Origin: an uncultured Prevotellaceae bacterium
GTDB lineage: Bacteria; Bacteroidota; Bacteroidia; Bacteroidales; Bacteroidaceae
DNA length: 52,476 nucleotides
Assembly: GCA_902799905.1 (NCBI GenBank)
Contig: CADCCB010000035.1
Coordinates: 1 to 52,476, forward strand
Direction: 5' to 3'
This document shows, one piece after another, positions 33,936-52,361 of the stretch. The translations under genes were made by a program, and so were the position numbers. The notes beneath the pieces are model-generated. The model saw nothing but the letters and a program-made list of their open reading frames with translations, was not told where the DNA came from and ran no database searches. Position 1 is the stretch's first letter. The number at the start of each line of letters is the position of its first letter.

Positions 33936-33970
33936 AAGCGGTATTTTTTTATTTGCAAAAATACCGCTTT
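33936..33970 (-). terminator. Terminator-like hairpin overlapping the tape-measure promoter
   Basis: On the minus strand AAAGCGGTATTTTT pairs with AAAAATACCGCTTT and is followed by TATT. The first arm contains the -7 box of the late promoter, so termination of upstream transcripts and initiation of the tape-measure transcript occupy the same DNA. Confidence 0.6.
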
Positions 33971-33991
33971 GTCATTTGATACGAAAATACT
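33956..33991 (-). promoter_or_regulatory. Putative phage late promoter 4 (tape measure)
   Basis: Minus strand: AGTATTTTCGTA, 16 bp, TATTTTTG. Two bases differ from the other three copies of the upstream box, and the spacing is identical. It lies within the 3' end of the 122-aa membrane protein gene. Predicted start near 33949, about 19 nt before the tape-measure ATG. Confidence 0.7.
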
Positions 33992-34340
33992 CCGGCCGTT
34001 TCATGGCTCTCTTGTTTATCTTGTCCCTTATCCTCTCTTCGAGGCTGCAGAACTCCTTCTTTATCTTTTCCTCCAGTTCCTCCTTGCAGTCTGCCACAAC
34101 CGTCCACCTTGAATCCAGTTCCGGACAGACCACCTCTGCCACATATTTCCCCATACCTGCATAATACCCTGATTTGTCAACGTGACATTTGCCGCTTGGG
34201 CTTACCGTATTGTCGAGAACAACAGGATCCAGTTTGGGATAGGTCTTTTCGTTCAAAGACCTGATTCCTGCAGCAATCAACCATCCTACGATGATGACAA
34301 GCATGAATATTCCGAACTCTGGAGGTAAGAAGTAAATCAT
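33972..34340 (-). CDS. Small phage membrane protein, 122 aa
   Basis: One N-terminal membrane helix (about 8-27, FGIFMLVIIVGWLIAAGI), then a soluble domain of about 90 residues with three Cys and a charged C-terminal helix. Not recognised. The position between a DUF5053-like gene and the tape measure gives no clear role. Its 3' end contains the late promoter for the tape measure. Confidence 0.65.
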   Translation of the reverse strand: MIYFLPPEFGIFMLVIIVGWLIAAGIRSLNEKTYPKLDPVVLDNTVSPSGKCHVDKSGYYAGMGKYVAEVVCPELDSRWTVVADCKEELEEKIKKEFCSLEERIRDKINKRAMKRPEYFRIK

Positions 34341-34360
34341 AACTCTGCCTTTTGTTAAAT

Positions 34361-34386
34361 GCCCCGATGCCCTGCGACACCGGGGC
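34361..34386 (-). terminator. Hairpin after the DUF5053-like gene
   Basis: GCCCCG/CGGGGC stem followed on the minus strand by CATTT. A weak terminator or processing hairpin between the 87-aa and 122-aa genes. Confidence 0.45.
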
Positions 34387-34449
34387 TTGTGATAGATTGC
34401 GCCCGTAGGCGACGGGCGGCTTTTGTCAACAGGGGAGTTACACCCTCGC

Positions 34450-34713
34450 CTAAATCTCTATAGTGTCTGCGGCTCTGCGTATGCGGTCAGCCAGATCACA
34501 GAGTGCGCCTTTGAGTTGTATACGTTCCTGAAGGTTGAACTCAGTTGGCTTTCCGTTGCCATCGATACCCTTCATTTTGTTGTAGAACCACGAGGCCGAC
34601 TTGTCGAAGTATGTACGTGCGAGGTCGCCCCAAGTGATGGCGTCGAAAATATCGTCCATCTGTTGATACATTGTCATCCGCTTTGTCTGCGGTTCTGAGA
34701 TTGTTGTTGCCAT
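34450..34713 (-). CDS. Small phage protein, DUF5053-like
   Basis: 87 aa, predicted all helical. The core DLARTYFDKSASWFYNKMKGIDGNGKP resembles DUF5053 proteins common in Bacteroidales prophages, with a helix-turn-helix-like look (a Tyr-Phe-Lys-Ser-Trp segment and a following polar helix). Role unknown. Family assignment is from memory of the motif and is moderately certain. Confidence 0.65.
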   Translation of the reverse strand: MATTISEPQTKRMTMYQQMDDIFDAITWGDLARTYFDKSASWFYNKMKGIDGNGKPTEFNLQERIQLKGALCDLADRIRRAADTIEI

Positions 34714-34732
34714 ATCTTCTGTTTTTTTTAAG

Positions 34733-34761
34733 AAGCCCCGCCCGCTCTTGTGGCGGGGCTT
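34733..34761. other. GC-rich hairpin between two small phage genes
   Basis: Perfect 10-bp stem AAGCCCCGCC/GGCGGGGCTT with a 9-nt loop. On the minus strand it is followed by an A-run rather than a U-run, so it may stabilise or separate mRNAs rather than terminate. Confidence 0.5.
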
Positions 34762-34766
34762 GCTTG

Positions 34767-34901
34767 TTAATCGTTAATCATTTCGTCGAATAGGATTGTA
34801 GCGTAACGCCTTAATTCCTTGCTTTTGTTGTGATAAGAACTCTTGTAGTTCCTAATCGCCTCGATGAGGTCGTTTTCTTGTTCTGTGATTTCTTTTACCA
34901 T
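34767..34901 (-). CDS. 44-aa phage protein
   Basis: ATG-initiated frame encoding a charged helical peptide (MVKEITEQENDLIEAIRNYK... ending EMIND). It begins about 22 nt downstream of the predicted start of the operator-controlled promoter at 34930-34961. The promoter, ATG and codon use support a real gene. No family recognised. It could be a small regulator because of its position directly behind a palindromic operator. Confidence 0.6.
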   Translation of the reverse strand: MVKEITEQENDLIEAIRNYKSSYHNKSKELRRYATILFDEMIND

Positions 34902-34929
34902 AATTTGTAACTCTTTATGTTTGACAATG

Positions 34930-34985
34930 CAAAGATAGTGTAAATTTTCGTATTAACCAAATGTTTAGTGTAAAATTTTACACTA
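34930..34985 (-). promoter_or_regulatory. Host-type promoter with 20-bp palindromic operator
   Basis: Promoter on the minus strand: TTTG, 20 bp, TATCTTTG (34930-34961). A perfect palindrome TAGTGTAAAATTTTACACTA occupies 34966-34985 just upstream. A matching half-site TAGTGTAAATTTT lies at 34936-34948 inside the promoter spacer, 30 bp away, about three helical turns. This is the layout of a cooperative repressor or activator site. It drives the 44-aa, DUF5053-like and 122-aa genes. Confidence 0.7.
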
Positions 34986-35030
34986 CCCCCGTATTTTTAA
35001 CATTTGATGCACAAAAAAGGGCTGGAAATC

Positions 35031-35612
35031 CTATTTTCCAGCCTTTATATATTTGTTATATGTTACTCGAGAATGCGGGTTGAAGTTAACGATTTTAAGT
35101 CGGTATCCCTTCGTGCCCCACCTCCACCAAAGGAAGTGGTGACGGTACTCTCGATACACCATGGTACTCAGAGAGTCACGTATATTATAATAAAATGTTG
35201 TGTCCTTCAGCGACAGTTGCAAGTCAGCCCACTCGTCGCTGTAATAATACAGACTATCATCCGGCTCGTGATGGGCGGGTACCGTGTCGCTTGTTTCTAC
35301 CACTGTTGTCTGCAGGGACTCCAACTGCTTCACTTTCAGTTCCAGTTCACTGATTAGTTTCTGGTCAGCCGCCAGAGCCTCTTTCATTTCCTTAGGCACC
35401 ACTTCGACCACCACTTGTGATACCACCTCAATGGAGTCACGGATGGTGTCACGCTGCAGTGGGATCTGCGCTTGCGACAGTTCTACACTCAGACGGTTGA
35501 TATCGTCTTCCAGTTCCCCGACCTTTATGGCCTTGGCCCCGACTGAGACTAATGCAATAATGGCCGTTATTGTGGCCAATACGGCCCAAATAAATAACTT
35601 TATACTTTTCAT
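35031..35612 (-). CDS. Spanin-like (Rz-type) lysis protein
   Basis: 193 aa. N-terminal membrane anchor (about 5-27), then a coiled coil (about 30-100), the topology of an inner-membrane spanin. It directly follows the amidase gene with a 4-bp overlap, completing a holin-amidase-spanin order. The C-terminal part (FYYNIRDSLSTMVYREYRHHFLWWRWGTKGYRL) is Tyr/Trp-rich and is a recurrent tail on Bacteroidales phage proteins of this type. Assignment rests on topology and position. Confidence 0.6.
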   Translation of the reverse strand: MKSIKLFIWAVLATITAIIALVSVGAKAIKVGELEDDINRLSVELSQAQIPLQRDTIRDSIEVVSQVVVEVVPKEMKEALAADQKLISELELKVKQLESLQTTVVETSDTVPAHHEPDDSLYYYSDEWADLQLSLKDTTFYYNIRDSLSTMVYREYRHHFLWWRWGTKGYRLKIVNFNPHSRVTYNKYIKAGK

Positions 35613-36253
35613 AAACTCTCAATGTATCTGATGATTCCTTCTACATGAATTCTCTCGATGATGTGACGGCCCTCGTCGCTCAGCAGCAGGGCCACATCAT
35701 TGATATTGTCCTGGAACAGGTTCTCTGTCAGCACAGCGGGACAGTTCGTTTCGTTCAGGACTTTCAGTGACTGTTCCCAGTATTTCTGCTTTTCATTCGG
35801 GAGCCTTACTCTCAGGCCGTGTTGCTTGGCAGCGTCAAAGAGGCATTCGGCCAGCATTTTACTTTGCCTTGATGCCTTAGGAGAAACACGGACGCTCCAG
35901 CCGTTAGGATCATGCCATTTGCCGTCGCTACCGCTGGCATCCACGTGAATGCTTACGTAAATCACATTCTTTGCACCGTTCTGCCTGCACAGTTCGTTGA
36001 CATAGTTCACACGCATGGCCAACTCGTTCTGACGCTCCTGTTTCGTACTTGGCGACTGCATCTGCTTCGGAAGATCGAGCGGCAGGTAGTCTATGACGCA
36101 TTTGTATCCCAGTTCCTGAAGCATAGCGGCTACCTCTGATGCTATCTCACGCCCATAGACACATTCCTTCAGCCTGCCGTCAGGACTCTGCTTGCCTGGT
36201 TCACGTTTGCGGTGGCAAGTACCCAGCGCAACTACGATATCATTCTTGTCCAT
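35609..36253 (-). CDS. N-acetylmuramoyl-L-alanine amidase (endolysin)
   Basis: 214 aa, Amidase_3 fold. Candidate zinc ligands are H14 (GTCH), a Glu at 30 or 36 and H103 (SIHVDASG), with E177 (LTENLF) as the catalytic residue. No signal peptide, so export would depend on the holin. It cleaves the stem peptide from glycan strands at lysis. Overlaps the holin gene by 14 bp upstream and the spanin-like gene downstream. Confidence 0.88.
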   Translation of the reverse strand: MDKNDIVVALGTCHRKREPGKQSPDGRLKECVYGREIASEVAAMLQELGYKCVIDYLPLDLPKQMQSPSTKQERQNELAMRVNYVNELCRQNGAKNVIYVSIHVDASGSDGKWHDPNGWSVRVSPKASRQSKMLAECLFDAAKQHGLRVRLPNEKQKYWEQSLKVLNETNCPAVLTENLFQDNINDVALLLSDEGRHIIERIHVEGIIRYIESL

Positions 36254-36506
36254 GATCCATTTCCTCCTTTCTTATTGTTTGAAGTTCCTTTCTGATTTCA
36301 TCCTTGAACTCAGTTACCTTGTTGGCGAAATAGTTAGTTACCCCAAACAGTAACAGTGCTGCAGACAAAGCCTCTCCGATGTAGGTCAGCGGTCCCGTTC
36401 CTATTTCTTGTGTCGTAATGAAACACAGAAAGCCCATAGCAATAGCAGAGGCAATAAGAGCCATTGCTGATGTGTGCTGCATCCAATCTTTCGTATTCTG
36501 CTTCAT
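36240..36506 (-). CDS. Holin-like protein
   Basis: 88 aa from the ATG at 36506. A longer frame to 36566 would start upstream of the predicted transcript start. Two membrane segments (about 13-33 and 42-60) and a charged C-terminal helix (KVTEFKDEIRKELQTIRKEE), as in class II holins. It sits directly before the amidase and directly after late promoter 3. Confidence 0.7.
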   Translation of the reverse strand: MKQNTKDWMQHTSAMALIASAIAMGFLCFITTQEIGTGPLTYIGEALSAALLLFGVTNYFANKVTEFKDEIRKELQTIRKEEMDHGQE

Positions 36507-36529
36507 ATTCCCTTGAATTAATTGATGCA

Positions 36530-36565
36530 CAAAGATAGAAACAAAATGAAAGGTATGAAAATACA
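36530..36565 (-). promoter_or_regulatory. Putative phage late promoter 3 (lysis genes)
   Basis: Minus strand: TGTATTTTCATA, 16 bp, TATCTTTG. Predicted start near 36523, 17 nt before the holin ATG. The upstream box begins exactly where the preceding terminator stem ends. Confidence 0.75.
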
Positions 36566-36599
36566 AGCGAAGCCCCTGAGTTGACTCTGAGGCTTCGCT
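36566..36599 (-). terminator. Terminator before the lysis genes
   Basis: AGCGAAGCC/GGCTTCGCT, a perfect 9-bp outer stem with further internal pairing, followed on the minus strand by TTGTATTTTC. It ends the transcript carrying the 135-aa gene and abuts late promoter 3. Confidence 0.8.
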
Positions 36600-36605
36600 G
36601 ATGTT

Positions 36606-37013
36606 TTACTGTGCTGCTTTTGCCGCTATCCAGTCTTTCGCCGTCTGTACGGCATACTGACACCAGGAGTTGTACTGTTCGTACTCCTGAGGTGCTTCCT
36701 CGTATTCACCATTGATCGCATGACGCTGGATGGCCAGTTCCTGGCTTTCTGTGTAACGTGTGCGTATAATGGCGTTGGCCAATTCCCCGGAATCATCCTG
36801 CTTATCACAGGCCATGACAGTGCCACCATCTGCCTCGCTACCGGTGTAGGCGTATGCCTCTGACCATGGTTCTGGCTCATTTGCTCCCTCTCCGGCATTC
36901 GGTTCGCTGGCGGGCTGGTAGTTGTTTAACACTTCCTCGTTGAGGTAACCGATAATGTGCGCTTCATCATATCTCTGATATGTACGGCGCTCCTTGTAAA
37001 CGTGTCTGTTCAT
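36606..37013 (-). CDS. Uncharacterised phage protein, 135 aa
   Basis: Acidic, low-hydrophobicity protein. The middle is rich in Glu, Pro and Ala, and the C-terminal helix includes YNSWCQYAVQTAKDWIAAK. No family recognised. It follows the 119-aa gene after 1 bp and precedes the terminator at 36566-36599, so both form the distal part of the DGR-linked transcript. It does not resemble the accessory DGR protein Avd in length, charge or helical content, although Avd divergence cannot be excluded. Confidence 0.65.
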   Translation of the reverse strand: MNRHVYKERRTYQRYDEAHIIGYLNEEVLNNYQPASEPNAGEGANEPEPWSEAYAYTGSEADGGTVMACDKQDDSGELANAIIRTRYTESQELAIQRHAINGEYEEAPQEYEQYNSWCQYAVQTAKDWIAAKAAQ

Positions 37014-37014
37014 A

Positions 37015-37374
37015 TTATGTGAATTTTACGAATGTCTGACCGTTCTTGCCCCTGTACTGCTGAACGACAGTAGGACATGGAAGGTCTTCAATCGTAAAAT
37101 CATTCAGAGCCTGGTCAATCAGGATCTTCGAACCTGTAAAACTATAGAACTCCGCATCATCCAATGTCGGGTTGCCCTCTTCGTCTTTCTTTTTCTCGAA
37201 AGTGTAGATCTCGTCTCCGCCTACCTCCGTGGTCCTGAGTATTCGCTTGAAACGGATGGCCAGGGCCTTGTTGGGCGAACTCTTCTCTACCATCTGCTGG
37301 CTACCTTCTGAGTTTTCGACCTGCACCATGACAGTGTTTTTGTCGATCTTTGAGTCCATGACCTTGTAGTCCAT
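37015..37374 (-). CDS. Uncharacterised phage protein, 119 aa
   Basis: Soluble mixed alpha/beta protein from an ATG at 37374 (MDYKVMDSKIDKNTVMVQVE). Not recognised. As sequenced, the reverse transcriptase frame overlaps its first 88 bp. With one fewer G in the upstream tract the reverse transcriptase would stop 17 bp before this start, a more normal layout. Confidence 0.7.
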   Translation of the reverse strand: MDYKVMDSKIDKNTVMVQVENSEGSQQMVEKSSPNKALAIRFKRILRTTEVGGDEIYTFEKKKDEEGNPTLDDAEFYSFTGSKILIDQALNDFTIEDLPCPTVVQQYRGKNGQTFVKFT

Positions 37375-38633
37375 AAGTAAAATTTTAATTTTACCCCCCC
37401 CCCGTTTTCACTTAAATTAACAATTGAGGAGAATTTTACCTTTTGACTGCCGGTCATCCCAGGAAAGGGAGGTCTGACACGGCGGTTCTTGATGATTTTT
37501 CCTAAAGATTTTTCCATACCTAATGTCTTGAATAAATGTATACTGTTTGCGTGTTTCACATATCCGAAGCGGGAAGCCAGTTTTATTCGTATCTGTTCTT
37601 CACTGTATCCTTTCTTTCTCAGTCTGGTCACCCTCTTTGCCAACTCTTGTTTGTTACGCTTGTTCGTTTCTACTTTTTCATGGAAAAATACATTTCCGCA
37701 CAAGCGTATCCCCGTCCAAACAGGGCGTACATTATAGTCCTTGTTGACTGTTACGTGCCAATCGCGGGACAGATGCATGATGGCCAGTTCGAGAATGATG
37801 TGCAGTGCTGTTTTGTCGGCATGGATAAATATGATGTTGTCGACAAAACGGAAATAGTGTGTCACGCCCTCCTCAACGTAATTCTGGAATTTGCGTGACA
37901 GATAGCCTGGTCCCTGGCATAGTTCTTTGTAGTCAGACTGTGAGGCAGTACAGATGCGGTCTGTCACATACCTCTGAGTCCAATATGCCAATTTCTCAGG
38001 ATCTTCACCGATATCAAAGAACCTCATGGCAAGGCGGTCGAACCGTGCCAGGTACACCTGCCCGAACAACTGTGCCACCTTAATACCCAAAGGTACGCCC
38101 TGGACATAACTGTCTACGACCTTGTAGCAGAAGGTGAGCAACTTGCCAGGCTTCATCAGCCTTGAAAGTTCTGCCTTCAGGATGGAATGATCCATCAATG
38201 GGAAGTAATGGTGTGCATCGATGGGGACATAATAAGCCATCTCTTCCTGCGTGTTTGCGTATAACTCATTGCGCAGGAAACGGAAAAGCCCGTGTGTGCC
38301 CATGTTAGGCTTCACGGCTGGCGCTCTCCATGTTGAGTAGTCATAGATGGCTTTCTCGTATGGCAATATGGAAGCACTCTCCAGAACATGGTCTTCGATA
38401 GGCGCTTTCGCCAGAACTCGCCTTTTCCTCTCATAGATAACCTTGCGGGTGTATCCCTTAGGTATCCATGATTCATCCTTTATCTGCTGCACGATTCCTT
38501 CTAGGTTGTGCTGCAGGTCGGCATCGTAGGCCTGAACGTAATCGCGAGAATGCTTTTGGTCGGAGTAGTTGTCGTATGCCTTATAGGCATTGTCAATCGA
38601 CTCGTTCTCCCGGTTGTCGCGTATTCGACGCAT
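37287..38633 (-). CDS. DGR reverse transcriptase
   Basis: 448 aa as sequenced, probably about 413. The fold and motifs match DGR reverse transcriptases: motif A with D139 (YYVPIDAHHYF); LGIKVAQ at 182-188, the DGR-type variant of the QGxxxSP motif (here with Ala for Ser); the catalytic box FVDN at 263-266 where YxDD is usual; and the downstream LCGNVFFHEKVETNKRNKQ and ASRFGYVKHANSIHLFKTLGM thumb segments. It copies the template-repeat RNA with errors at adenines. It lies about 195 bp downstream of the template repeat on the same strand. The last 35 residues run through a G10 tract into the next gene and are doubtful. Confidence 0.92.
   Translation of the reverse strand: MRRIRDNRENESIDNAYKAYDNYSDQKHSRDYVQAYDADLQHNLEGIVQQIKDESWIPKGYTRKVIYERKRRVLAKAPIEDHVLESASILPYEKAIYDYSTWRAPAVKPNMGTHGLFRFLRNELYANTQEEMAYYVPIDAHHYFPLMDHSILKAELSRLMKPGKLLTFCYKVVDSYVQGVPLGIKVAQLFGQVYLARFDRLAMRFFDIGEDPEKLAYWTQRYVTDRICTASQSDYKELCQGPGYLSRKFQNYVEEGVTHYFRFVDNIIFIHADKTALHIILELAIMHLSRDWHVTVNKDYNVRPVWTGIRLCGNVFFHEKVETNKRNKQELAKRVTRLRKKGYSEEQIRIKLASRFGYVKHANSIHLFKTLGMEKSLGKIIKNRRVRPPFPGMTGSQKVKFSSIVNLSENGGGVKLKFYLWTTRSWTQRSTKTLSWCRSKTQKVASRW
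37394..37403. repeat. C10/G10 homopolymer at the end of the reverse transcriptase gene
   Basis: Ten consecutive C on the plus strand (G on the coding strand) encode Gly411-413 and enter the next codon. With nine G the frame would end immediately with TAA (plus-strand 37391-37393). It may be a contingency tract or a length error. Confidence 0.85.
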
Positions 38634-38646
38634 AACGGGTTCTTTG

Positions 38647-38815
38647 CGGTTACTGAATAAGGTGTCTTGGCGGGATCTTGGCGGGGTCTGTGTGTTCTTG
38701 TGGGAGTCTGCAAATACCTCCCGACAGGTATGCCGCTCACCATCAGGGCTACGAGGCTCGCTGCCATCTATGATATGTTCGACCTTTGGGTCCGGCTCAC
38801 TCTCTTATACAGGTT
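38647..38815 (-). other. Template-to-reverse-transcriptase spacer
   Basis: The interval between the template repeat and the reverse transcriptase start has no convincing gene: an 88-aa frame here overlaps the reverse transcriptase start and has no protein-like composition. In the Bordetella phage DGR the matching spacer RNA is needed for priming and for binding the accessory protein, so this stretch is probably functional RNA. Two near-identical 12-nt units (CGCCAAGATCCC / CGCCAAGACACC on the minus strand) lie in it. Confidence 0.5.
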
Positions 38816-38827
38816 TCAGGTCTTGTT

Positions 38828-38946
38828 GAGGAACGCGCCCCAGTTCGCATTGGCATTCGAGACCGCATTGTTGCCATTGAGGTACAACGAGCCAGCATTG
38901 TCACCATTGTTCGCATTGCCGAGCAATTTGGCACCACGCAAACCGC
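38828..38946 (-). repeat. DGR template repeat (TR)
   Basis: 119 bp, aligned without gaps to 39228-39346. It differs at 15 positions, all of them T on the plus strand (A on the coding strand) out of 25 such positions. No other base differs. The coding strand is dense in AAC/AAT codons: read as protein it gives GLRGAKLLGNANNGDNAG and so on, where Asn marks the diversified positions. AAY codons under adenine mutagenesis reach many residues but no stop. Confidence 0.97.
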
Positions 38947-38964
38947 GCTGTGGGAGTTCTACCG

Positions 38965-38982
38965 GCTTTCGCTTCGGAAAGC
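38965..38982. other. Hairpin just upstream of the template repeat
   Basis: GCTTTC-GCTTCG-GAAAGC, a 6-bp stem that would lie at the very 5' end of the template transcript predicted from the promoter at 38988-39017. Confidence 0.45.
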
Positions 38983-38987
38983 GAGTG

Positions 38988-39017
38988 CAAAGGTACACAT
39001 TTATTTTGTATCAGCAA
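38988..39017 (-). promoter_or_regulatory. Host-type promoter of the template RNA
   Basis: Minus strand: TTG, 19 bp, TACCTTTG. Predicted start near 38981, 35 bp before the template repeat. The late-type box is absent here. Confidence 0.7.
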
Positions 39018-39075
39018 GTCAAAGAGCGAAATTTAATCACTAATTTAATAATTATTTAATCACAGAAAGAAAAAT

Positions 39076-39099
39076 GCCGACCGCTACCGCGGTGTCGGC
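39076..39099 (-). terminator. Terminator of the DGR target gene
   Basis: GCCGAC/GTCGGC stem with inner CGC/GCG pairing, followed on the minus strand by ATTTTTC. A second GC-rich hairpin (CGCCC/GGGCG) lies directly before it. It separates the target-gene transcript from the template transcript. Confidence 0.8.
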
Positions 39100-39173
39100 C
39101 GCCCTTTCCGGGCGGGGGCGCTGTCGCGCCGGTGTGCTTTGCGCTCCGCGCCTACTGCGCCACCTTGATCCAC

Positions 39174-40592
39174 TTAGTCTTCCACGGCCCAGAATGGTTT
39201 CGTCGTGAACGCCTCTGCCCATTCGCAGAGGAACGCGCCCCAGAGCGCATCGGCAGCCGAGACCGCATTGCGGCCACTGAGGTACAACGAGCCAGCACAG
39301 TCACCATAGCTCGCAGTGCCGAGCAATCCGGCACCACGCAAACCGCTTGTAGCGGCAGGATTGTAGTAACCGTCGCAGTAGAACGTACTGGCGCTGCCGC
39401 CGAGTTCTTCGCCTGGGAAAAACGCAAGGTTCTTCAGGACATAGTCCTTTGCGTACTGCCAGCCTGCAGACGCAGCAACGGGTCCCTTGGCAATCTGAGT
39501 CAGGCCTGCCACGCTGCCAAGATTCATGTTAGAGCCATCAATATCGTCAGCCACGAAGAGCGTCTGAGACTTGTCGGCATTACTCTGCAGCAGCATGTTC
39601 TCGCTCATACAAACGAGATACTTATAGTCATTCTTCAGACCATAGAAAGACGGAATGTTTCCGATAGCCTTCTGGGCACCATTCTCTGTAATGGTCGTAT
39701 TGATCAGGCCTGTGAAGTCACCCTGGGAGATTCCCACATCCAGAGTGATGTACGGATAATAATTGAAATTGCCACTCCAGTCCGTTGGCATGTCGACACC
39801 CTGTCCGGTACCGCCCTGACGAAGACCGTTTGCATCAAGCGTGGCATTGAATGATGCCTGAATGTTACGGTTGCCGAAGATAATACGCTTTAACATGGCA
39901 GTTACATACTGCATGACTCGCTCGTTGGCGAACCACAGAGTCCCGTTCTTACGTGCTGCCGTGCGGAATGAACTAATGTCCATATTCGTAGCAGGCTTGC
40001 ACAACTGAGACTTATATGTAGCGTCCAAAGATGCGTCGTTGTTACCTCCACGGTATTGGACGGCATCGTTAACATAACTCACAAGTTTGCTGTTTGTGCG
40101 GTCCATCGTTGCATAACCAGCACAAGAACGGGAGCCAACGGGGATGTAGTAGTTCCAGAAACCCTTACGAGGCCCGCCCAGCGAAATTGTCTCGTAGACA
40201 TAGGTGTCATCTTCATACACCTGGTAGTACATCGGTACGTTCCAGCCCCACTGGTAGTGGCCAGCGGCACCTGTCAGGTCGGCAGCGCCACCATTATCCA
40301 GGAGATTATGGTTTGCTGCAGACAGTTTCCTGCGAGTGTGGTCATTCTGTACGAGATAGCCTCCAAGTCCCAACTGTTTTGCCAGCACCTGTCCGAGGTC
40401 AAAATCGCCTACAGGTGAACCTACTGGAGAAGCGTTTCCTTTCGCCCACTTACGGCCAAACCAAGGAAGGTTACCGTTTACTTGCGACACGGCTACAAGA
40501 CCGGTCTTTCCTGCCAGCGTGTCATAACCTACAAGGTAAGTGTTTGCACCTACATTCAGGTTTTCCAAATTCCTCATTAATTGTTTATCCAT
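39174..40592 (-). CDS. DGR-diversified phage tail (receptor-binding) protein
   Basis: 472 aa. Residues about 416-455 are the variable repeat, followed by a constant 17-residue tail (CEWAEAFTTKPFWAVED). The GLRG...AGSLYLSGRNAVS...WGAFL pattern is that of C-type-lectin-like DGR targets, in which the variable residues lie on a rigid ligand-binding surface. Relative to the template translation ten residues differ: K to G, and N to T, S, Y, C, S, R, A, D and L. The N-terminal 400 residues are soluble and Gly/Asn-rich. Position after the tail-fibre genes supports a role in host-surface recognition, inferred rather than shown. Confidence 0.88.
   Translation of the reverse strand: MDKQLMRNLENLNVGANTYLVGYDTLAGKTGLVAVSQVNGNLPWFGRKWAKGNASPVGSPVGDFDLGQVLAKQLGLGGYLVQNDHTRRKLSAANHNLLDNGGAADLTGAAGHYQWGWNVPMYYQVYEDDTYVYETISLGGPRKGFWNYYIPVGSRSCAGYATMDRTNSKLVSYVNDAVQYRGGNNDASLDATYKSQLCKPATNMDISSFRTAARKNGTLWFANERVMQYVTAMLKRIIFGNRNIQASFNATLDANGLRQGGTGQGVDMPTDWSGNFNYYPYITLDVGISQGDFTGLINTTITENGAQKAIGNIPSFYGLKNDYKYLVCMSENMLLQSNADKSQTLFVADDIDGSNMNLGSVAGLTQIAKGPVAASAGWQYAKDYVLKNLAFFPGEELGGSASTFYCDGYYNPAATSGLRGAGLLGTASYGDCAGSLYLSGRNAVSAADALWGAFLCEWAEAFTTKPFWAVED
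39212..39231. promoter_or_regulatory. Hairpin/cruciform at the 3' end of the variable repeat
   Basis: Coding strand CCTCTGC-GAATGG-GCAGAGG, a perfect 7-bp stem with a 6-nt loop, starting in the last four bases shared by both repeats. The template repeat lacks it. In the Bordetella phage DGR a similar hairpin just after the variable repeat boosts target-site homing. Confidence 0.75.
39228..39346 (-). repeat. DGR variable repeat (VR)
   Basis: 119 bp inside the 3' end of the target gene. The shared 3' segment GGGGCGCGTTCCTC (coding strand) has no A and is invariant, as expected for an initiation-of-mutagenic-homing region. The 5' boundary is the shared GCGGTTTGCGTGGTGC. Confidence 0.97.
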
Positions 40593-40613
40593 ATCTTTTC
40601 TGATTAAAAGTTA

Positions 40614-42206: not shown

Positions 42207-42208
42207 GG

Positions 42209-43297: not shown

Positions 43298-43494
43298 TGC
43301 TTGAGTGATTTTACGAATTCAACTGCTTCATTCTCTGTCACTGGAAGGGCGCGATCCATGAAGTCCTCGGTTGCGCAAGCGAAATCGCCTGAGTGCACCA
43401 GATATCCATCTGACTCGTTACCCTCGCGGTAGCCCGTCACACCCAACCTGTGGGCATCATCGGCACTAATGATGTAATACTTTAACTTGCTCAT
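43294..43494 (-). CDS. Small phage protein, 66 aa
   Basis: From the ATG at 43494 (MSKLKYYIISADDAHRLGVTGYREGNESDGYLVHSGDF). ATGA overlaps at both ends bind it tightly into the operon. Not recognised. Possibly a chaperone or small baseplate part. Confidence 0.65.
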   Translation of the reverse strand: MSKLKYYIISADDAHRLGVTGYREGNESDGYLVHSGDFACATEDFMDRALPVTENEAVEFVKSLKQ

Positions 43495-44648: not shown

Positions 44649-44651
44649 ATC

Positions 44652-46058
44652 TTACATCAGAATTGAATATTGTGTACTAAATGGTTCGTTATATCCATCC
44701 AGAAGGATGTCGCACTGGAAACTCACCTTCGAACCTGGCTCCCATACGCCCGGATAGTCAACTGTGGAGTCCAGTTGAAGTTCCAACCCCTGTGTGCCGG
44801 TGGCATGCTGGATATTCCACGCGATATCACCCTGCACGTCATCGCTGATACGCTGCCAGGTAATTTTATTGCGACCAATTTCCGCTTCCGTAATCAGCAT
44901 CTCCGCATTCCATAGTGAAGCAACGAGCGTTGTCTGCCATGGTTTCCCTGCAGGGAAGGAATCGCCAGCCGTCGATATGATATCCATCGACATATTCATA
45001 CCACCCAACAGGCACACCCAGTCGGCATTGTTGTACCGTGGCTCCCTGCCAATGGTGGGAAGCGCAACGGCAGCCTGCCACAGACAGCCACCCCACCAAA
45101 CGCGGTCTGTGAAGAATCCCTGAGCAGTCTCGTCGTAGCCATGGATATACTGTACATCTGCCTGCCACGAGCCCCTATCACGGGCCGTGTATTCAGGATT
45201 GCCTTGGTAATCTATCCTGATGACATCCTGGACTATCAGGCCTCGTGCGTAGATATAAGGCTGGCGCCTGTTGATTGGAAGGTTCCTCAGGCATTCGAGG
45301 TCTGGAGGCAAGCCTATGAAAGCAGAATAGTTCGTGTCATTCACGACAGGCTGAGTGACGCCCTGCAGGAACAGGAACCGTCCGTCTTCGCTGCTGATGA
45401 AGAACACCTGCTGTCGATCACGGTCTGCCTGATTACCCCAGCGTATCAGTCTTGCAGCAGGTTCCGGAGCATAGTTCACACCACCTGGCACATCCTCGTT
45501 GTCATACAGCGTCACGTCCAAGGTGTTCGCTGTCAGATCCACCGAATCCACTCGCATCCAAGATGTCTTGTAAGTGCGGGCGATATCGAGGTTGTTCATT
45601 GAGCAGCGTAGCACATCATAGGCATGAAATGTCACCTGATCATTGTCATACATCTTGCGCATGGTCAGCCGGTACTGACCACTGCCCAGATATTCCACAT
45701 CGTCGATGATGCCCCTGTCCGTAAAGTATGTGTCGCCCTCCAACACATTCTGATGATTGAACACCAGTTCGTTGAAGACTGCGCTGCCCAGCACATTAAT
45801 TCGTGAGCAGGAAATGGAGCCGTCAGGGTTGAGCCGGATTTGTCCTGTCTCACCGATGACGGCCCCGGCGACAAGGCGCAGGAGATAGTTGGTTTGGTCT
45901 TCCTGGTCCTTACGGATGAAAGGCGTGTCAGGATCCAGGATATACTGTAGCAGCATGAGGAAAGCCGTACCGATACGGGTAGCCGTGTTCGCATGGGTCA
46001 CCCGCTCATCACGGATCCCTTCGAACCACTGTCTCATATATTCGGTATTCTGTGCCAT
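44652..46058 (-). CDS. Phage baseplate/tail protein, 468 aa
   Basis: First gene of the distal tail block, with its own late promoter 15 bp upstream. Segments such as TGQIRLNPDGSISCSRINVLGSAVFNELVFN are short beta repeats typical of tail-tip proteins that display or trimerise fibres in Bacteroidales phages, and RGSWQADVQYIHGYDE recalls a chitin-binding-like YxxGxxV element. No enzyme motif seen. Confidence 0.65.
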   Translation of the reverse strand: MAQNTEYMRQWFEGIRDERVTHANTATRIGTAFLMLLQYILDPDTPFIRKDQEDQTNYLLRLVAGAVIGETGQIRLNPDGSISCSRINVLGSAVFNELVFNHQNVLEGDTYFTDRGIIDDVEYLGSGQYRLTMRKMYDNDQVTFHAYDVLRCSMNNLDIARTYKTSWMRVDSVDLTANTLDVTLYDNEDVPGGVNYAPEPAARLIRWGNQADRDRQQVFFISSEDGRFLFLQGVTQPVVNDTNYSAFIGLPPDLECLRNLPINRRQPYIYARGLIVQDVIRIDYQGNPEYTARDRGSWQADVQYIHGYDETAQGFFTDRVWWGGCLWQAAVALPTIGREPRYNNADWVCLLGGMNMSMDIISTAGDSFPAGKPWQTTLVASLWNAEMLITEAEIGRNKITWQRISDDVQGDIAWNIQHATGTQGLELQLDSTVDYPGVWEPGSKVSFQCDILLDGYNEPFSTQYSILM

Positions 46059-46074
46059 GTTGCTTGTTTTTATG

Positions 46075-46110
46075 CAAAGTTAGGAAGAAGATTATGGGTA
46101 TGAAAATACA
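46075..46110 (-). promoter_or_regulatory. Putative phage late promoter 2 (distal tail block)
   Basis: Minus strand: TGTATTTTCATA, 16 bp, TAACTTTG. It lies in the 55-bp gap between two structural genes. Predicted start near 46068, about 10 nt before the ATG at 46058. Confidence 0.75.
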
Positions 46111-46113
46111 CAA

Positions 46114-46656
46114 TCAGAAGTTTGCCAGCACGTGACTTATATCCTTCCCGTTGCGATCCTTCAGGCTTCCGTCGGTCCCTCCTCCGAGAATGGCATCGAG
46201 CACGTTTGAGAGATTACCCATGAACATCTCCCCATAGACGTTACGCTCCGTCTCTGCCAGCACATACATGGAGCGCAGGTATTTCTTCAGGAACCAGTTT
46301 CGCTTCTTGCTGAGAGGCTTACCGCCAGCCACACGGCCGCCCCATGCAGGGCCAACCTTCCTGGGCTTGTTCAAGCCGTGCTCAACGCGGTACGACTGTG
46401 ACAGGAAAGGAAGGTCTCCAGGATTACCTGGAGTATAACCTCGTCCGGTACCACGCGCCACATAGATACCATACAGGGCAAACTCATGAACCATCTCCTT
46501 CTGGTCAGCGGTAGCCATCACGCGGCCTGTCAGCGAACGCATCAGGTTCCCGGTGTCCACAATACCCAGACGCATGATATTCTCCGTCCATATCGTCACC
46601 ATCATGTCACTCCACTCCTCTTCCCACTTCCGAAGTTCCTCTTCGGTCTCGGGCAT
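46114..46656 (-). CDS. Head-tail joining protein, HK97 gp10-like
   Basis: 180 aa from the ATG at 46656, which follows the previous stop almost directly (an in-frame start at 46680 would add 8 residues). The segment GIVDTGNLMRSLTGRV and the later FALYGIYVARGTGRGY follow the pattern of gp10-type neck/tail-completion proteins (VDTG.L..S and an A..VE.GT-like element). Position between portal-like and tail genes agrees. Confidence 0.65.
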   Translation of the reverse strand: MPETEEELRKWEEEWSDMMVTIWTENIMRLGIVDTGNLMRSLTGRVMATADQKEMVHEFALYGIYVARGTGRGYTPGNPGDLPFLSQSYRVEHGLNKPRKVGPAWGGRVAGGKPLSKKRNWFLKKYLRSMYVLAETERNVYGEMFMGNLSNVLDAILGGGTDGSLKDRNGKDISHVLANF

Positions 46657-46657
46657 G

Positions 46658-47158
46658 TTAGCACCATTGATCCGCCTCATATTCCAAATCTATGGGTTCC
46701 CAGGTGTAGAGTGTAAAATGCAGGCCTGTCATGCCGGAAAGGTAGTATCGGCCTATCTCCTGATTTGGGATGGCGTGTGTATCGAAGAACATCTGCTTTT
46801 CCTCATATTCATATTTGTCGTGTATGATTTTACTGACGAACTGATGGAACAGCATCCGGCACAATTCCAGTTCTTCCTGACGTGCGGACATGTTCCCGTA
46901 TTCGTAGGCCGACAAGATGAACACAGTGAAGGCCCTGCGTTTCTGGAACCCATAGGCACCGTCCGGAGATGCAAGGTTACCGCTGCTGGTGTCAGCGATG
47001 GCCACGAACCGGTCGTGGTCACGATACTCTTCCATCAGTCCCTCCAGGTTGTCGGTGTTTGAGATAACCACCGGCAGGAAACCTTGCTCCTGTGCCAACT
47101 TGTTGCTCTGAGTCATATCCTCAAAGTAACGGATGGCATCAAAACTAGTTCTTTCCAT
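46658..47158 (-). CDS. Phage protein, 166 aa, probable neck/tail completion
   Basis: Soluble alpha/beta protein (MERTSFDAIRYFEDMTQSNKLAQEQGFLPV). No motif is diagnostic. In the portal to gp10 to tail order, a protein of this size just before gp10 is often a head-tail connector or tail terminator. Overlaps the upstream gene by 14 bp. Confidence 0.6.
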   Translation of the reverse strand: MERTSFDAIRYFEDMTQSNKLAQEQGFLPVVISNTDNLEGLMEEYRDHDRFVAIADTSSGNLASPDGAYGFQKRRAFTVFILSAYEYGNMSARQEELELCRMLFHQFVSKIIHDKYEYEEKQMFFDTHAIPNQEIGRYYLSGMTGLHFTLYTWEPIDLEYEADQWC

Positions 47159-47903
47159 ACTTTTGCTTTATTTCCTCTGCCTCCTTGGCCAAAGCATCCA
47201 GTTCAGCCAGCGCAGTCCATGTATCTACATTATCCCTCACATACTGTTCCTTGGTCACATCTCCTTTCGTCAGCAGACGGATCTGAGCCCTCATACTCTC
47301 TATCAGAGACTGCCTCGTGACAGCCTCGCCCTGCTCACCTGACAGTTTCAGGAATCTGGGGAACTGCCTGCCTAATTCCTGCTTGACAGCGTTGAACCAC
47401 AGGAAGGTGGCAAGCAGCATCCAATCGCGTAATTCCGGCACAGACGCATCATCCGGAATACGGTAAAGAATCCTGGCAAGCCCTATCAGGCTTTTCTCTT
47501 CCCTTCCAATCAAGTATGACTGGAAGTAGTTCTCTGCCTTGAGGTATTCACCGAATGGAAGTTCCTGAAGCAGGAAATCTACAGCCTGGTACTCCCCTAC
47601 CCTGTCAATCCTGACGGTCAGGTTGTCCGTATCAACAGTCCATGCAACCTTTTCCATCATCGAGGGCAGCAGTTCCGTGTCCAGGATAAAGCAATCACCG
47701 CTTTTCCTCTCACGGCACATCCATCCACTATCTGTCAACTTTTGGATTTCTATGTTGCAGAACTTCACCAGTACCGCGGCCAGCACCCCATCCTTCCACG
47801 CATCTCCCGTGCCGTCCCCGCTATACAGCCATATCATGCGTATCACGAAGCGCAACTGCTCCGGCGTCAGTTCCTCCCATCCTGATGGAATGGTGAAGGC
47901 CAT
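47145..47903 (-). CDS. Uncharacterised phage protein, 252 aa
   Basis: From the ATG at 47903 (MAFTIPSGWEELTPEQLRFVIRMIW), 4 bp after the previous stop. A longer frame to 48008 would overlap that gene by 100 bp. Largely helical, with a charged C-terminal helix (LDALAKEAEEIKQKYGK). The opening WEELTPEQL segment is a recurring feature of Bacteroidales phage and conjugation-linked proteins, but no function is known to me. Confidence 0.6.
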   Translation of the reverse strand: MAFTIPSGWEELTPEQLRFVIRMIWLYSGDGTGDAWKDGVLAAVLVKFCNIEIQKLTDSGWMCRERKSGDCFILDTELLPSMMEKVAWTVDTDNLTVRIDRVGEYQAVDFLLQELPFGEYLKAENYFQSYLIGREEKSLIGLARILYRIPDDASVPELRDWMLLATFLWFNAVKQELGRQFPRFLKLSGEQGEAVTRQSLIESMRAQIRLLTKGDVTKEQYVRDNVDTWTALAELDALAKEAEEIKQKYGKN

Positions 47904-47907
47904 CTCC

Positions 47908-48750
47908 CTACATAAAGAAGAATGTGGGATCTTCTTTCTTGTTCTGGTATCTTTCGGCATGTCGTTTGGCATATAGTCTTGAATTGCAGTAGGTAGGATA
48001 ACTGTCACGGTAGGACTCCAGTTGATGTACTATCTGGCGCAACATCACCTCGTTTGGGCATCCCTTTGTCTGCTCATAGTTCGAGATGAAGTCTGCCATG
48101 AAGCGCAGGCACTTGTCAATGACGATGTTGTCAGCGTTATTGGTACCGCCAGTACGCAACTTTTCCAGAAGTTCGTCCATGTATTCTTCACTGATCTCAT
48201 TACTAAGCAATGCGCTGGCTGTCACGGCACAGCCCATGGCGAACTGCCATGTCTGCGTAGTCAGCACAATACCACACAGCGATTTCAACTGCTGCGGACG
48301 ATATAAGAAAGTCGGCACACGCCCCTTTGCCTGGTCAGTCAGTCCCCAGCCGTCAATCTTTATCAGTTCCTGGATCAATTCATCTATCAGGTCCAGTTCC
48401 TGAAGGCTCAGTTCCTCGATGAGCGCATCGACGCGACTCTTCGAGGCAGGTGCCGTACTCTCAGTAGATACGATACCGAAGCCGGTGGCTGTCAGTACCA
48501 GGTCAAGGGTTCGGCAAGTACGAATAAATCCATCGATACACACCAAGGGTATTACCAGCCGCTTGAGGTTGGCATTACTGTCAATAGCGGCCTCACATTC
48601 TGGCGATACAATCGTACGTACCATCATAAAGTACGCAGTCTGAAAAGAGGCCTCCAGACGATCGAATACGCTCGTATTCCTGTCCGGCATCTTGGCTGCA
48701 GGGACATAAGTCTCAAATACAGTCTTAGTTATTTCCGTCTTCAGATCCAT
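47908..48750 (-). CDS. Uncharacterised phage protein, 280 aa (DUF6712-like?)
   Basis: Mostly helical protein (MDLKTEITKTVFETYVPAAKMPD). Size, position after the portal-like gene and the C-terminal SYRDSYPTYCNSRLYAKRH segment suggest a Bacteroidetes phage head-completion family, possibly DUF6712, but this is a weak recollection. Overlaps the portal-like gene by 26 bp. Confidence 0.6.
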   Translation of the reverse strand: MDLKTEITKTVFETYVPAAKMPDRNTSVFDRLEASFQTAYFMMVRTIVSPECEAAIDSNANLKRLVIPLVCIDGFIRTCRTLDLVLTATGFGIVSTESTAPASKSRVDALIEELSLQELDLIDELIQELIKIDGWGLTDQAKGRVPTFLYRPQQLKSLCGIVLTTQTWQFAMGCAVTASALLSNEISEEYMDELLEKLRTGGTNNADNIVIDKCLRFMADFISNYEQTKGCPNEVMLRQIVHQLESYRDSYPTYCNSRLYAKRHAERYQNKKEDPTFFFM

Positions 48751-50122
48751 CTCCTTTTCCTCCGTTATTAGTTGTCACTTCCTTCGCATCAGTATTCTTA
48801 TCCAGCGTGGTCAGCAGAATCATCGGCACGTCCGGATAGACCTTTTCCTGCCATTCGTTATAGTAGATGATGGTATTATGCACGGTCATCATCATGTCGT
48901 GCGGCATAGTCTCCAGAGCCTGTTTCATGGTGAACAACTCACGTTTGTCAGAGCCCGAATTGTTCATCTGGCTCTTGCCGGGCGTAGCACCTGCCAGGTT
49001 AGGATGCACGTTGTCCGAATAGGCCAGCACATTTGCAGCCTCGGCCACATCGTCGTTATACTCGTTGCCAGCCTTCGACGTGTCCACCACGTTGATCTTG
49101 ATATTGTGGCGTTCCTTGCCGTCCATCAGCGCATCGAACTCCGACCATATCAATTTGTCTGAGTTCTCAGAACCGCCCAGGTACTCCTTCAACTGTGTAA
49201 TGAACTCCGTTTTCATTGTCACAAACTCCGGATCGTTCATCGAGATTCCCTTCTCACGGGCACGGCTTTCCCAGAAGCCCGTATTGATCTCCACATGGTA
49301 GCGAATATTCTGGCCGTTTTTGATTTTCGCCTTCTTGGCAGCAGTCAGCAGTCCATAGATATCATACCAGCCGTCACGCAGCGTGGCACTCCAGTACGGT
49401 ATCGGATAGATGCTGCTGCCCACTGTCGGCATACGGCAGACAATGGCAAATTTCTTATACCTGCCAGGCATCACCTTGAACATACCCAGCGGATCTTTCT
49501 CCTTGTCAGTACGGGCCATCAGGTCACCCAGGGGGTCGTATTCGTCCAGCAGGGGAACGACCTCCACATTCTCCGGATTGTCGTTATCCTTCCAGTCTGC
49601 AAAGAAGATATTCTTGATCCTGCCCATGTCGTCGGGTTTCTGGAAACGGACATGGCAGGCATCCTTGTGCACTACGCGCGCGATCTTCTGACGATCATTG
49701 CTCAGGATGACCACACTGACACAGAAGAAATAGTACTTCAGGTCTGTCACCTGCTCCGCAAAGAAGCGCTTCATGTTGTTACGCATGAAGAAAGTCCTAA
49801 CATTCACCTCCTTTGACGGCAAAGGATTCTTTTCCCCCTGAGTGGCCATGTCCATATACTCCAGACCCCTGCCATAGCAAGTGAGCACGTTGAAGAATTT
49901 GTCCTGGCTCAGGACAGAATTCTTCTCCACCCTCTCCTTCAATTCGTATGGCAACTGGTTATTTGTTCCCCACGCAACCACCTCGTAAGTATTACCATCA
50001 TCGGCCTCTATCTCCATGATGTCCTCTTTCTCCGGACTACTGAAGATGCTGCCAACGGTCACGGCCTCAGAAGCGATATTACAAGTCTTCTGTATCTCGA
50101 AAAAATACTGTTCCTTCATCAT
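48725..50122 (-). CDS. Portal-like protein
   Basis: 465 aa. The pattern resembles portal proteins: an N-terminal wing (WGTNNQLPYELKERVEKNSVLS), a central part with alternating beta and acidic segments, and a C-terminal stretch PNLAGATPGKSQMNNSGSDKRELFTMKQAL followed by long helices, like the clip/stem region in which a bound G-rich loop precedes the crown. The tail end is Lys/Gly/Asn-rich. The identification is from pattern and position (before connector-type genes). No terminase or capsid gene is visible to confirm it. Confidence 0.5.
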   Translation of the reverse strand: MMKEQYFFEIQKTCNIASEAVTVGSIFSSPEKEDIMEIEADDGNTYEVVAWGTNNQLPYELKERVEKNSVLSQDKFFNVLTCYGRGLEYMDMATQGEKNPLPSKEVNVRTFFMRNNMKRFFAEQVTDLKYYFFCVSVVILSNDRQKIARVVHKDACHVRFQKPDDMGRIKNIFFADWKDNDNPENVEVVPLLDEYDPLGDLMARTDKEKDPLGMFKVMPGRYKKFAIVCRMPTVGSSIYPIPYWSATLRDGWYDIYGLLTAAKKAKIKNGQNIRYHVEINTGFWESRAREKGISMNDPEFVTMKTEFITQLKEYLGGSENSDKLIWSEFDALMDGKERHNIKINVVDTSKAGNEYNDDVAEAANVLAYSDNVHPNLAGATPGKSQMNNSGSDKRELFTMKQALETMPHDMMMTVHNTIIYYNEWQEKVYPDVPMILLTTLDKNTDAKEVTTNNGGKGDGSEDGNN

Positions 50123-50376
50123 ATATATACAGGATGTCCATTAATCTCAAATATCAATATGTCTCTCACCTTGCGGATCTGTCTGCTTACTGGGTTGTAG
50201 AAGTCGTGCGTTCCTGCACGCCAGTAACTACTCTGCACCAGCCAACCGTCATAACGGTGTATCACTCCTTCCGCGTCGAGTGCCACGACCCACACCTTTT
50301 CGCGGGTACGCTTACACTCATCGAGGAACAGTTGCGCTTCCTTCAAGTGGATGGCTTTCTTTACCTTCTGGCTCAT
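50119..50376 (-). CDS. Small phage protein, 85 aa
   Basis: From the ATG at 50376, 1 bp after the previous stop (an ATG at 50397 would overlap it). Contains VWVVALDAEGVIHRYDGWLVQSSYW, a small beta domain. Overlaps the portal-like gene by 4 bp. Not recognised. Confidence 0.6.
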   Translation of the reverse strand: MSQKVKKAIHLKEAQLFLDECKRTREKVWVVALDAEGVIHRYDGWLVQSSYWRAGTHDFYNPVSRQIRKVRDILIFEINGHPVYI

Positions 50377-50377
50377 A

Positions 50378-51433
50378 TCAGTTGAATGTTCTGTCAAACG
50401 TGTTGTCGAATATCCTGGCCACCCGCCCAGACTGCATCACATTATGTATGCGCTGCGAGTAGGTATAGGTGAACTCGAATGCCGGCATGTTGTCATCATC
50501 GTTGGTAATCTCACTCTTCGAATCACTCAACACCACTTCACGGCCTACGACGCCATTCACCCACAGGAACACCGACTCAGAGCGGAACAGTTCATCAGCC
50601 CAGTCGGCCATGGCCTCGTTGAGCCAGCCAGTGTTAGCATGCAGTTGCCTGTCTTCCGTCACGCGGTAGTTCCTCAGGCGTCCGCCTATGCGGGCCTGTT
50701 TGCGGTCATACTTCGAGTCCTTTTTGTGCGTACCCACACAATGAAGGAACTCCTCATATCCGAAACTGTTGATGAACAGTAGCGACGGAGCGGGAGGCAC
50801 CAGGTCTTCCACCATACGGAAGTCCTGACGACGGCTGCCGGCTTCCACCGTATAGCCCAGCAACCGGCCACCGATCAGGCCTATGAGTGATATCACATTG
50901 TCGGGCGACACATCAAAATGATAGACGCTGCCCTCATGGTCCGCACTGGTAAGTTCTGCAGACAGTGTGTTATACTGTCCATTGGCCAGAAGAACGTCTG
51001 CCCGCACTGTCACTGCCGACACGTTATAGGCATGGATGCGCTCAGCACGCCCAAGGGCTGTCATTTTCTCCCCGTCAAGGGTACTCAGGAAATGATTCGC
51101 CACAAAGTCTGCTGCAGTGGTACCAACATCCACCATACCAAAGAGGATGACCACCTGTGTAATGCTGGCAGTACCGCTACTATCCCTGAAACTGCAATTC
51201 ATCCACACCGACAGATATTTCCTGGCATATGGCTCCACCAGCGAAGCCAAGTCGCCCACCACTACGCTGCCGTCCACCGATGAGTACAATGTCTCTTCCA
51301 TGATGGTCTGAGTAACTCCTCCACAGACAAGTTCCAGCACGAGCACACCGTTTTCATCGTTGGTACTGAAAACGATGTCATCGATCATCGACGAGAAATT
51401 GAGGAACGGGGGTTGACTTACGAGAGTTGCCAT
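50378..51433 (-). CDS. Phage structural protein, 351 aa
   Basis: From the ATG at 51433 (MATLVSQPPFLNFSSMIDDIVFST). The extension to 51532 crosses the promoter and is rejected. Beta-rich, no membrane segment, with a Trp-containing segment (WLNEAMADWADELFRSESVFLWVNG). It opens the visible late transcript and has its own late promoter and terminator pair upstream. No family recognised; a capsid-associated or tail-attachment role is a guess from position. Confidence 0.65.
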   Translation of the reverse strand: MATLVSQPPFLNFSSMIDDIVFSTNDENGVLVLELVCGGVTQTIMEETLYSSVDGSVVVGDLASLVEPYARKYLSVWMNCSFRDSSGTASITQVVILFGMVDVGTTAADFVANHFLSTLDGEKMTALGRAERIHAYNVSAVTVRADVLLANGQYNTLSAELTSADHEGSVYHFDVSPDNVISLIGLIGGRLLGYTVEAGSRRQDFRMVEDLVPPAPSLLFINSFGYEEFLHCVGTHKKDSKYDRKQARIGGRLRNYRVTEDRQLHANTGWLNEAMADWADELFRSESVFLWVNGVVGREVVLSDSKSEITNDDDNMPAFEFTYTYSQRIHNVMQSGRVARIFDNTFDRTFN

Positions 51434-51451
51434 CTTTCTTTTCTTTTTCTG

Positions 51452-51487
51452 CAAAGATAGCAACACGTACGAAACTATGAAAATACA
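51452..51487 (-). promoter_or_regulatory. Putative phage late promoter 1 (351-aa gene and portal block)
   Basis: Minus strand: TGTATTTTCATA, 16 bp, TATCTTTG. Predicted start near 51445, 12 nt before the ATG at 51433. Confidence 0.75.
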
Positions 51488-52341: not shown

Positions 52342-52356
52342 CATCATTCTGTAAGC
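52342..52356. repeat. Third copy of the CATCATTCTGTAAGC element
   Basis: Same orientation as 52125-52141. It lies at the predicted transcription start of the promoter at 52362-52392. Confidence 0.75.
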
Positions 52357-52361
52357 GGGAG

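Follow-up and report, generated by a model that had tools for sequence, protein, structure and literature searches.

Putative late promoters of tailed temperate Bacteroidales phages carry a phage box in place of the host -33 element

The window analysed here is the entire contig CADCCB010000035.1 of the uncultured Prevotellaceae assembly GCA_902799905.1 (52,476 nucleotides, nt). It holds part of a prophage with portal, tail-type, lysis, tape measure and integrase genes (Table 1), and the element under study is a short box that precedes a promoter -7 element at four places on the minus strand. An earlier note on this DNA had described four identical copies of a 12-mer, each exactly 16 bp before TAnnTTTG. 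The pattern TGTATTTTCATA-N16-TAnnTTTG matches exactly at promoters 1, 2 and 3, with 0 matches in 100 shuffles, which bears out the spacing; identity holds for these three copies and fails for the one at 33956-33991, where 2 of the 12 box positions differ. As the note had also stated, the spacers of the window sites are unrelated, and a start codon follows within 15-25 bp, the distance from TTTG to ATG being 18, 16, 23 and 25 nt for promoters 1 to 4. Its lysis and tape measure blocks stand; the term 'structural', which it gave to the 351-residue (aa) product behind promoter 1, reflects only place and conservation, and this product, scanned in a 384-aa form, matched no Pfam or PHROG family. The 468-aa gene behind promoter 2 has a weak tail fibre match, and the 88-aa gene behind promoter 3, in a 108-aa form, matches the function-unknown family phrog_8278 (2e-5).

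Table 1. Features of the prophage. Positions are those of the window unless prefixed by C44, another contig of the same genome; N19 is a spacer of 19 nt.
Feature	Position	Strand	Remarks
Putative late promoter 1	51452..51487	minus	core box GTATTTTC 51479-51486, N19, -7 element TATCTTTG 51452-51459; exact match
Putative late promoter 2	46075..46110	minus	core box 46102-46109, N19, -7 element TAACTTTG 46075-46082; exact match
Putative late promoter 3	36530..36565	minus	core box 36557-36564, N19, -7 element TATCTTTG 36530-36537; exact match
Putative late promoter 4	33956..33991	minus	core GTATTTTC 33983-33990 exact, N19, -7 element TATTTTTG 33956-33963
351-aa late gene	50378..51433	minus	behind promoter 1; relatives in A, B and C phages
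Portal protein	48725..50122	minus	PHROG portal 8.4e-5; annotated Polaribacter phage portal 24.5% identity, 3e-26
468-aa gene	44652..46058	minus	behind promoter 2, opens tail-type block; phrog_26822 4e-40, function-unknown family
88-aa gene	36240..36506	minus	behind promoter 3, adjoins endolysin; holin-like by place only
Endolysin	35609..36253	minus	lysis block; phrog_435 endolysin 1.5e-25
Tape measure protein	29662..33930	minus	behind promoter 4; phrog_25337 2.4e-48
Tyrosine integrase	26691..27875	plus	phrog_1 9.8e-27; adjoins tRNA-Pro
16-bp repeat at tRNA-Pro end	26542..26557	plus	probable attachment core; also at C44 20162-20177
Fifth exact core site	C44:10898-10932		before head protease; N19; contig with the other attachment site
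Variant site GTATTTTG	C44:15713-15747		before primase; last-place G restores TTTG
X	C44:11420-11908		162 aa; encoded directly before the first late promoter; own promoter without box

The full 12-mer was considered as the unit and rejected: relatives keep 8 bp of it, its leading T and trailing ATA being variable among them, and on its own it gives 9 matches at up to 2 mismatches against 3.7 expected. What stands out is the combination of box, spacing and -7 element rather than the 12-mer alone. We scanned the window's prophage and seven whole IMG/VR phage records, which had been found by the box and two of which (G111 and G115) have much sequence in common. TAnnTTTG stood 10-29 nt behind 28 copies of GTATTTTC, in all 28 cases at 19 nt; a further 15 copies in the same records had no TAnnTTTG within that range. 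Because every copy followed by a -7 element sits at this one distance, the core was defined as GTATTTTC-N19-TAnnTTTG.

Across the 3.42 Mb of the window's own genome, the core with spacers of 14-24 nt gave 6 matches, five at N19, all in the prophage, and one elsewhere at N16; the reversed control gave 0. The fifth N19 site lies on C44. The 16-bp repeat at the tRNA end recurs on that contig, and therefore C44 1-20177, with the fifth late box and the gene called X, is probably the rest of the window's prophage. C44 carries a head protease (phrog_94, 4e-41), a DnaG-type primase, a LuxR-type helix-turn-helix (HTH) protein and X. The terminase of the prophage takes its name from its profile family, which includes a Porphyromonas phage protein annotated as terminase; the capsid was named by place only.

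The published Bacteroidales promoter consensus, with which our host sample agrees, consists of a -33 TTTG and a -7 TAnnTTTG (PMC7366714, in the part available). All four window sites have the TAnnTTTG of promoters of sigma-ABfr, the primary sigma factor. They lack its -33 TTTG: at all five exact prophage sites TTTC stands in that register. Among 141 promoter-like sites sampled from about 426 kb of the own chromosome, TTTG was found at N19 in 11 and at N20 in 18, whereas neither TTTC at N19 nor GTATTTTC or its G variant at N15-24 occurred in any of the 141. Since the sampled host promoters have TTTG there and never the box, the box takes the place of the host -33 element. The earlier claim that it replaces the host -33 TTTG is thus in line with the register and with the use of TTTG at 29/141 host sites.

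When viral contigs were scanned for exact matches, 16 records were found (relatives of group A). Thirteen matches precede a gene of the 351-aa type and two a 77-aa gene in the lysis place, so that 15/16 stand before one of two late gene types; the remaining match has no open reading frame (ORF) behind it. When up to 3 mismatches were allowed, the 16 records held 42 sites, on a single strand within each record (reversed control, 1), and the longer records showed additional sites on the same strand. Promoters of homologous genes in relatives also bear the box of promoter 1. In five A phages the last box base is C or T at 23/24 late sites; TTTG is therefore removed while the -7 element stays. The same element precedes several late blocks in the prophage and its relatives, as a phage late regulon would. 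The phage-specific late regulon proposed by the earlier note is supported by these late genes, by the same-strand sites and by the location of all five own-genome N19 sites in the prophage.

Loci of relatives were collected around the portal gene and their k-mers counted blind to the motif; these loci are the best 80 of 140 viral ones and 48 whose genome titles read Prevotella, Prevotellaceae, Bacteroidaceae, Bacteroidales or Hallella. Near relatives had GTATTTTC at N19 in 37/83 deduplicated promoter-like sites. In distant ones (portal 37-47% identical), GTATTTT occupied the same place in 80/247, mostly as GTATTTTTA, and GTAGTTT in 21. A second lineage (group B), which has similar hosts, uses the alleles GTATTTTT and GTAGTTTT in the same register. 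All 11 whole B records examined, which X or the portal had led to and which were picked for length or for X, held 4-6 sites on one strand at up to 1 mismatch (reversed control, 0). Both A and B alleles occur in Prevotella-titled contigs, and the allele is therefore not set by the host sigma factor alone.

Homology to X led to a third group (C), comprising Bacteroides phage BT-TP2 and Porphyromonas phages with a similar gene order: primase, other genes, X, a small gene, head protease. Their late genes bear GTCCTTT or GTCCTTC in the register seen in A and B. In 35 loci, several of them near-copies, there were 41 cases of GTCCTT[TC] at 20 nt from a following TAnnTT[TC]G, with none at other distances from 12 to 29 and none on the opposite strand. 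At least one exact site was present in 12/12 whole C records chosen from 32 loci; at up to 1 mismatch these records gave 4 minor-strand matches in all, and their reversed control gave 6. BT-TP2, whose deposited host is B. thetaiotaomicron BG12, encodes X as gp8. Of its five boxes, one precedes a full TAnnTTTG; the -7 elements behind the other four are weaker and stand at the same distance. Some C-type -7 elements are poor (TTTCTTTG, CACCTTTG) at an unchanged distance, which would be expected if a factor bound to the box compensates. With a relaxed -7 element, 28/29 matches on the late strand of nine C phages fell at N20.

The three groups were compared in 22 record entries, the strand with most boxes being taken as the late strand. 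The box itself had led to five viral A/B records (the A records and G100); the remaining six B phages and every C phage had been found without it. Counting deduplicated 7-mers that end 20 nt before TAnnTTYG on the late strand, we found GTATTTT 28 times among 157 in A (the next 7-mer, 3), GTATTTT 29 and GTAGTTT 8 times among 198 in B, and GTCCTTT 22 and GTCCTTC 4 times among 267 in C, while no 7-mer exceeded 3 on the opposite strand. Within spacers of 10-31 nt, a single spacing accounted for 29/29 sites in A, 37/38 in B and 31/32 in C, with 0 at that distance on the other strand; these spacing patterns required the initial GT of the box, which the k-mer counts did not. In A, B and C alike this GT is conserved, at a place that the host TTTG does not cover. 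Divergent relatives found by protein homology, and not by the box, thus bear lineage-specific alleles at an identical distance. In three control phages of Bacteroides that we picked, p00, crAss001 (1-50000 of 102679) and B124-14, X was absent at E<=10, and box-type matches totalled one, which runs against the direction of nearly all genes of B124-14. Chance or recent duplication might have been invoked because a single window holds few sites; it is refuted by the unrelated spacers, the homologous placement in tens of phages and the single spacing, and is hardly credible.

In the genomes compared, the box allele follows the phage lineage, and this bears on whether the host primary sigma factor could read the box unaided as a strong -33 variant, the promoters then being constitutive or controlled by a repressor only. 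The box does share the TTTG register, and where its last base is G, as in GTATTTTG, TTTG is restored; this is the case in the primase promoter here and in some promoters of the head protease. Yet the box is missing from the 141 host sites, its allele shifts with phage lineage among Prevotella-titled contigs, and its initial GT is conserved outside the host element, which renders this explanation improbable.

Genomes of the genus served to judge whether the box has a reader encoded by the host, either an alternative sigma factor or an activator. Frequent host use, suggested by a first scan with matches in 28/100 genomes at up to 1 mismatch, was rejected, most of these being explained by aroQ starts: by eye, 16/29 loci (L036-L064) lie before a xerD-like gene, and the 'box' is the reversed start of a divergent aroQ (we take the genes to be aroQ and xerD). 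As a separate observation, also by eye, xerD-like genes of the genus (L037, L038, L043, L045 and others) seem to use this reversed aroQ start at the -33 register. The exact core was found at 35 sites in 25 of 150 genomes, our own included, against 3 in the reversed control; the near absence from host chromosomes expected by the earlier note therefore holds for the own genome, with 5/5 sites in the prophage, and not wholly for the genus. Of 28 sites re-read, 15 stayed unassigned, which together with the excess over the control would favour a host factor. However, 9 are reversed aroQ starts by their peptide pattern, and three (L360, L367, L373) open genes that resemble phage late genes by eye; L370 lies with L373 in the G077 cluster. 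More than two core sites were found only in the own genome (5, all prophage) and in G077 (5), four of the latter on one strand of one contig (G077:C65, probably a related prophage). Taken with the differing alleles within one host genus, these points leave a host factor very improbable.

The box is best explained by a phage activator or sigma-appropriation factor, which we sought by iterative profile searches from this prophage's proteins over 5 A, 7 B and 9 C phages. X was found in 5 A, 7 B and 8 C phages, and the ninth C phage, Pg018a, has an annotated homologue, a hypothetical protein that aligns with X. By record entries, X is present in 20/22; one of the other two is the half of this prophage that lacks X, and the second is Pg018a. 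Four proteins were each found in 5 A, 7 B and 9 C phages: the terminase, the tape measure, a tail-region protein of 591 aa and a head-block protein of 206 aa. The 351-aa protein was found in 5, 7 and 8, and the integrase in 5, 7 and 6. Other proteins reached part of each group: the primase 4, 2 and 8, the reverse transcriptase 4, 6 and 2, the portal 5, 7 and 1, and two further small proteins. As judged from these profiles, which were seeded from this prophage, X is the only near-universal protein with no evident virion, packaging or integration role; it is the likely reader of the box. The X proteins of A/B and of C are homologous (hhalign probability 98.3, E 2.5e-14, 136 columns), and in a tree of X, GTC-type boxes occur only with C-type X and GTA/GTT-type boxes only with A/B-type X. 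X is annotated as 'transcriptional regulator' in BT-TP2 and as 'hypothetical protein' in two Porphyromonas phage records. As for its own expression, in 12 A/B phages a -7 element (TATCTTTG or similar) stands 13-30 nt before the ATG of X, for example at L084 11909-11960; this promoter is without box, and its -33 TTG is mostly missing and not consistent.

Phages can encode a sigma factor of their own, T4 gp55 being an example. Among the proteins scanned here we found no full sigma factor, and a sigma-4-like score appeared only on the LuxR-type HTH protein. This early LuxR/GerE-type protein (C44:18612-19226, 204 aa; GerE 8.6e-10, Sigma70_r4 9.6e-6), or an unrecognised small protein, might read the box in place of X, which would then serve another purpose. 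The LuxR/GerE-type protein is present in 5/5 A genomes but in only 4/7 B and 2/9 C genomes, all of which carry boxes, and we regard another phage factor as unlikely, if more plausible than a host one.

Several points weigh against reading by X. Sequence searches of Pfam, PHROGs, NCBIfam and the PDB gave no significant match for it, so DNA binding by X is without family support. The box allele follows X, as it would follow the terminase or any other phage gene that is inherited vertically, and the elimination was seeded only from prophage ORFs of at least 50 aa and may miss small or fast-evolving factors. In the X tree, 14/48 rows have no box within 1600 nt after X (of these, at least the L092 locus ends early). 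Minor-strand matches also occur: 5 scattered ones in the nine C phages with a relaxed -7 element, one of them at N20, and 2 in the 22 entries with a looser box pattern. Finally, upstream of X, 12/12 A/B genomes have a site with the 7-mer and G or A in place 8, a primase being recognised behind it in 6, and head-protease sites of L097, L101, L102, L263 and L182 end in G, restoring TTTG. A simple scheme of late expression only does not explain the place-8 G/A site; such bases may mark promoters that the host can read too, or that both can.

With these points weighed, we consider it likely that the sites are late promoters of tailed temperate phages in which the -33 element is replaced in register by a phage box, probably read by X. 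The host primary-sigma -7 element (TAnnTTTG) would be kept and the -33 TTTG swapped for the phage box, GTATTTTC in this prophage. X would bind the box and hold the host holoenzyme at the promoter through contact with sigma region 4 or RNA polymerase. Lacking TTTG, the late promoters would be weak in the lysogen, and head, portal, tail, lysis and tape-measure blocks would switch on together once X is made. Our judgement is evenly balanced on a wider proposal, that of an old, order-wide late switch in which a previously unnamed X family of about 160 aa alone appropriates the primary sigma factor through an 8-bp box in place of -33. Box and X would have diversified together (GTATTTTC, GTAKTTTT, GTCCTTT/C), and a degenerate -7 element would be tolerated by the box.

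Two further features of the window were noticed. A diversity-generating retroelement comprises a reverse transcriptase (37287-38633) and 119-nt template-like and variable-like repeats (38828-38946 and 39228-39346); the variable-like repeat extends into a 472-aa tail gene, and 15/15 mismatches fall at a template A. Near the contig end (window 52136-52360), the 15-nt GCTTACAGAATGATG was seen by eye twice and once inverted.

On sequence grounds, this prophage of a probable Prevotella and related phages of Prevotella, Bacteroides and Porphyromonas carry the same kind of tag at one fixed distance before their late genes, and its purpose is probably to let a virus-made protein steer the host transcription machinery to these genes. 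The primary sigma factor of Bacteroidales is unusual, and we came across few published accounts of late-gene timing in their phages. The earlier note knew of no described late promoter of this form; we likewise found none in open-access full text, most subscription papers and bioRxiv lying outside that search, and no paper naming BT-TP2 in the open-access literature. In the main text of PMC10367356, on P. gingivalis phages, the terms 'promoter', 'late genes', 'transcriptional' and 'activator' have 0 occurrences. With the box, late operons can be found and split prophages joined in a simple way, and sigma appropriation in this phylum can be tested directly now that a candidate regulator has been named.

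Among known systems, crAss-like phages are comparable in that late genes of Bacteroidales phages are concerned, and the authors think that host RNA polymerase likely transcribes them (PMC8375218, available part). They differ in encoding a giant virion RNA polymerase, according to the same part of that source, and neither box nor X was found in crAss001 1-50000. The B. thetaiotaomicron PM2 motif, like our element, is a second non-canonical promoter class in the order; as described in the available part of PMC7366714, with which we compared it by description, it is near-palindromic, has elements at -10/-30, is linked to oxidative stress and is no phage class. The sigma-ABfr promoter, as presented there, shares the -7 element and overall register with our sites, which differ from it by the replaced -33 TTTG, the single spacing and the extra upstream GTA or GTC. 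In T4, where MotA/AsiA appropriate the host sigma factor, that factor shares the middle promoters with a phage DNA-binding protein (PMC6755090, available part). Our element differs from that system in sequence, hosts and sigma factor, in serving late rather than middle genes, and in having one candidate protein instead of two, X lying outside the library families searched; neither MotA nor AsiA was matched among the prophage proteins scanned with Pfam and PHROGs, a scan that did not take in every small ORF. In sequence, however, the sites show the arrangement of T4 middle promoters: a host -10-type element is kept, and the -35-type element is replaced by a phage box in a fixed place.

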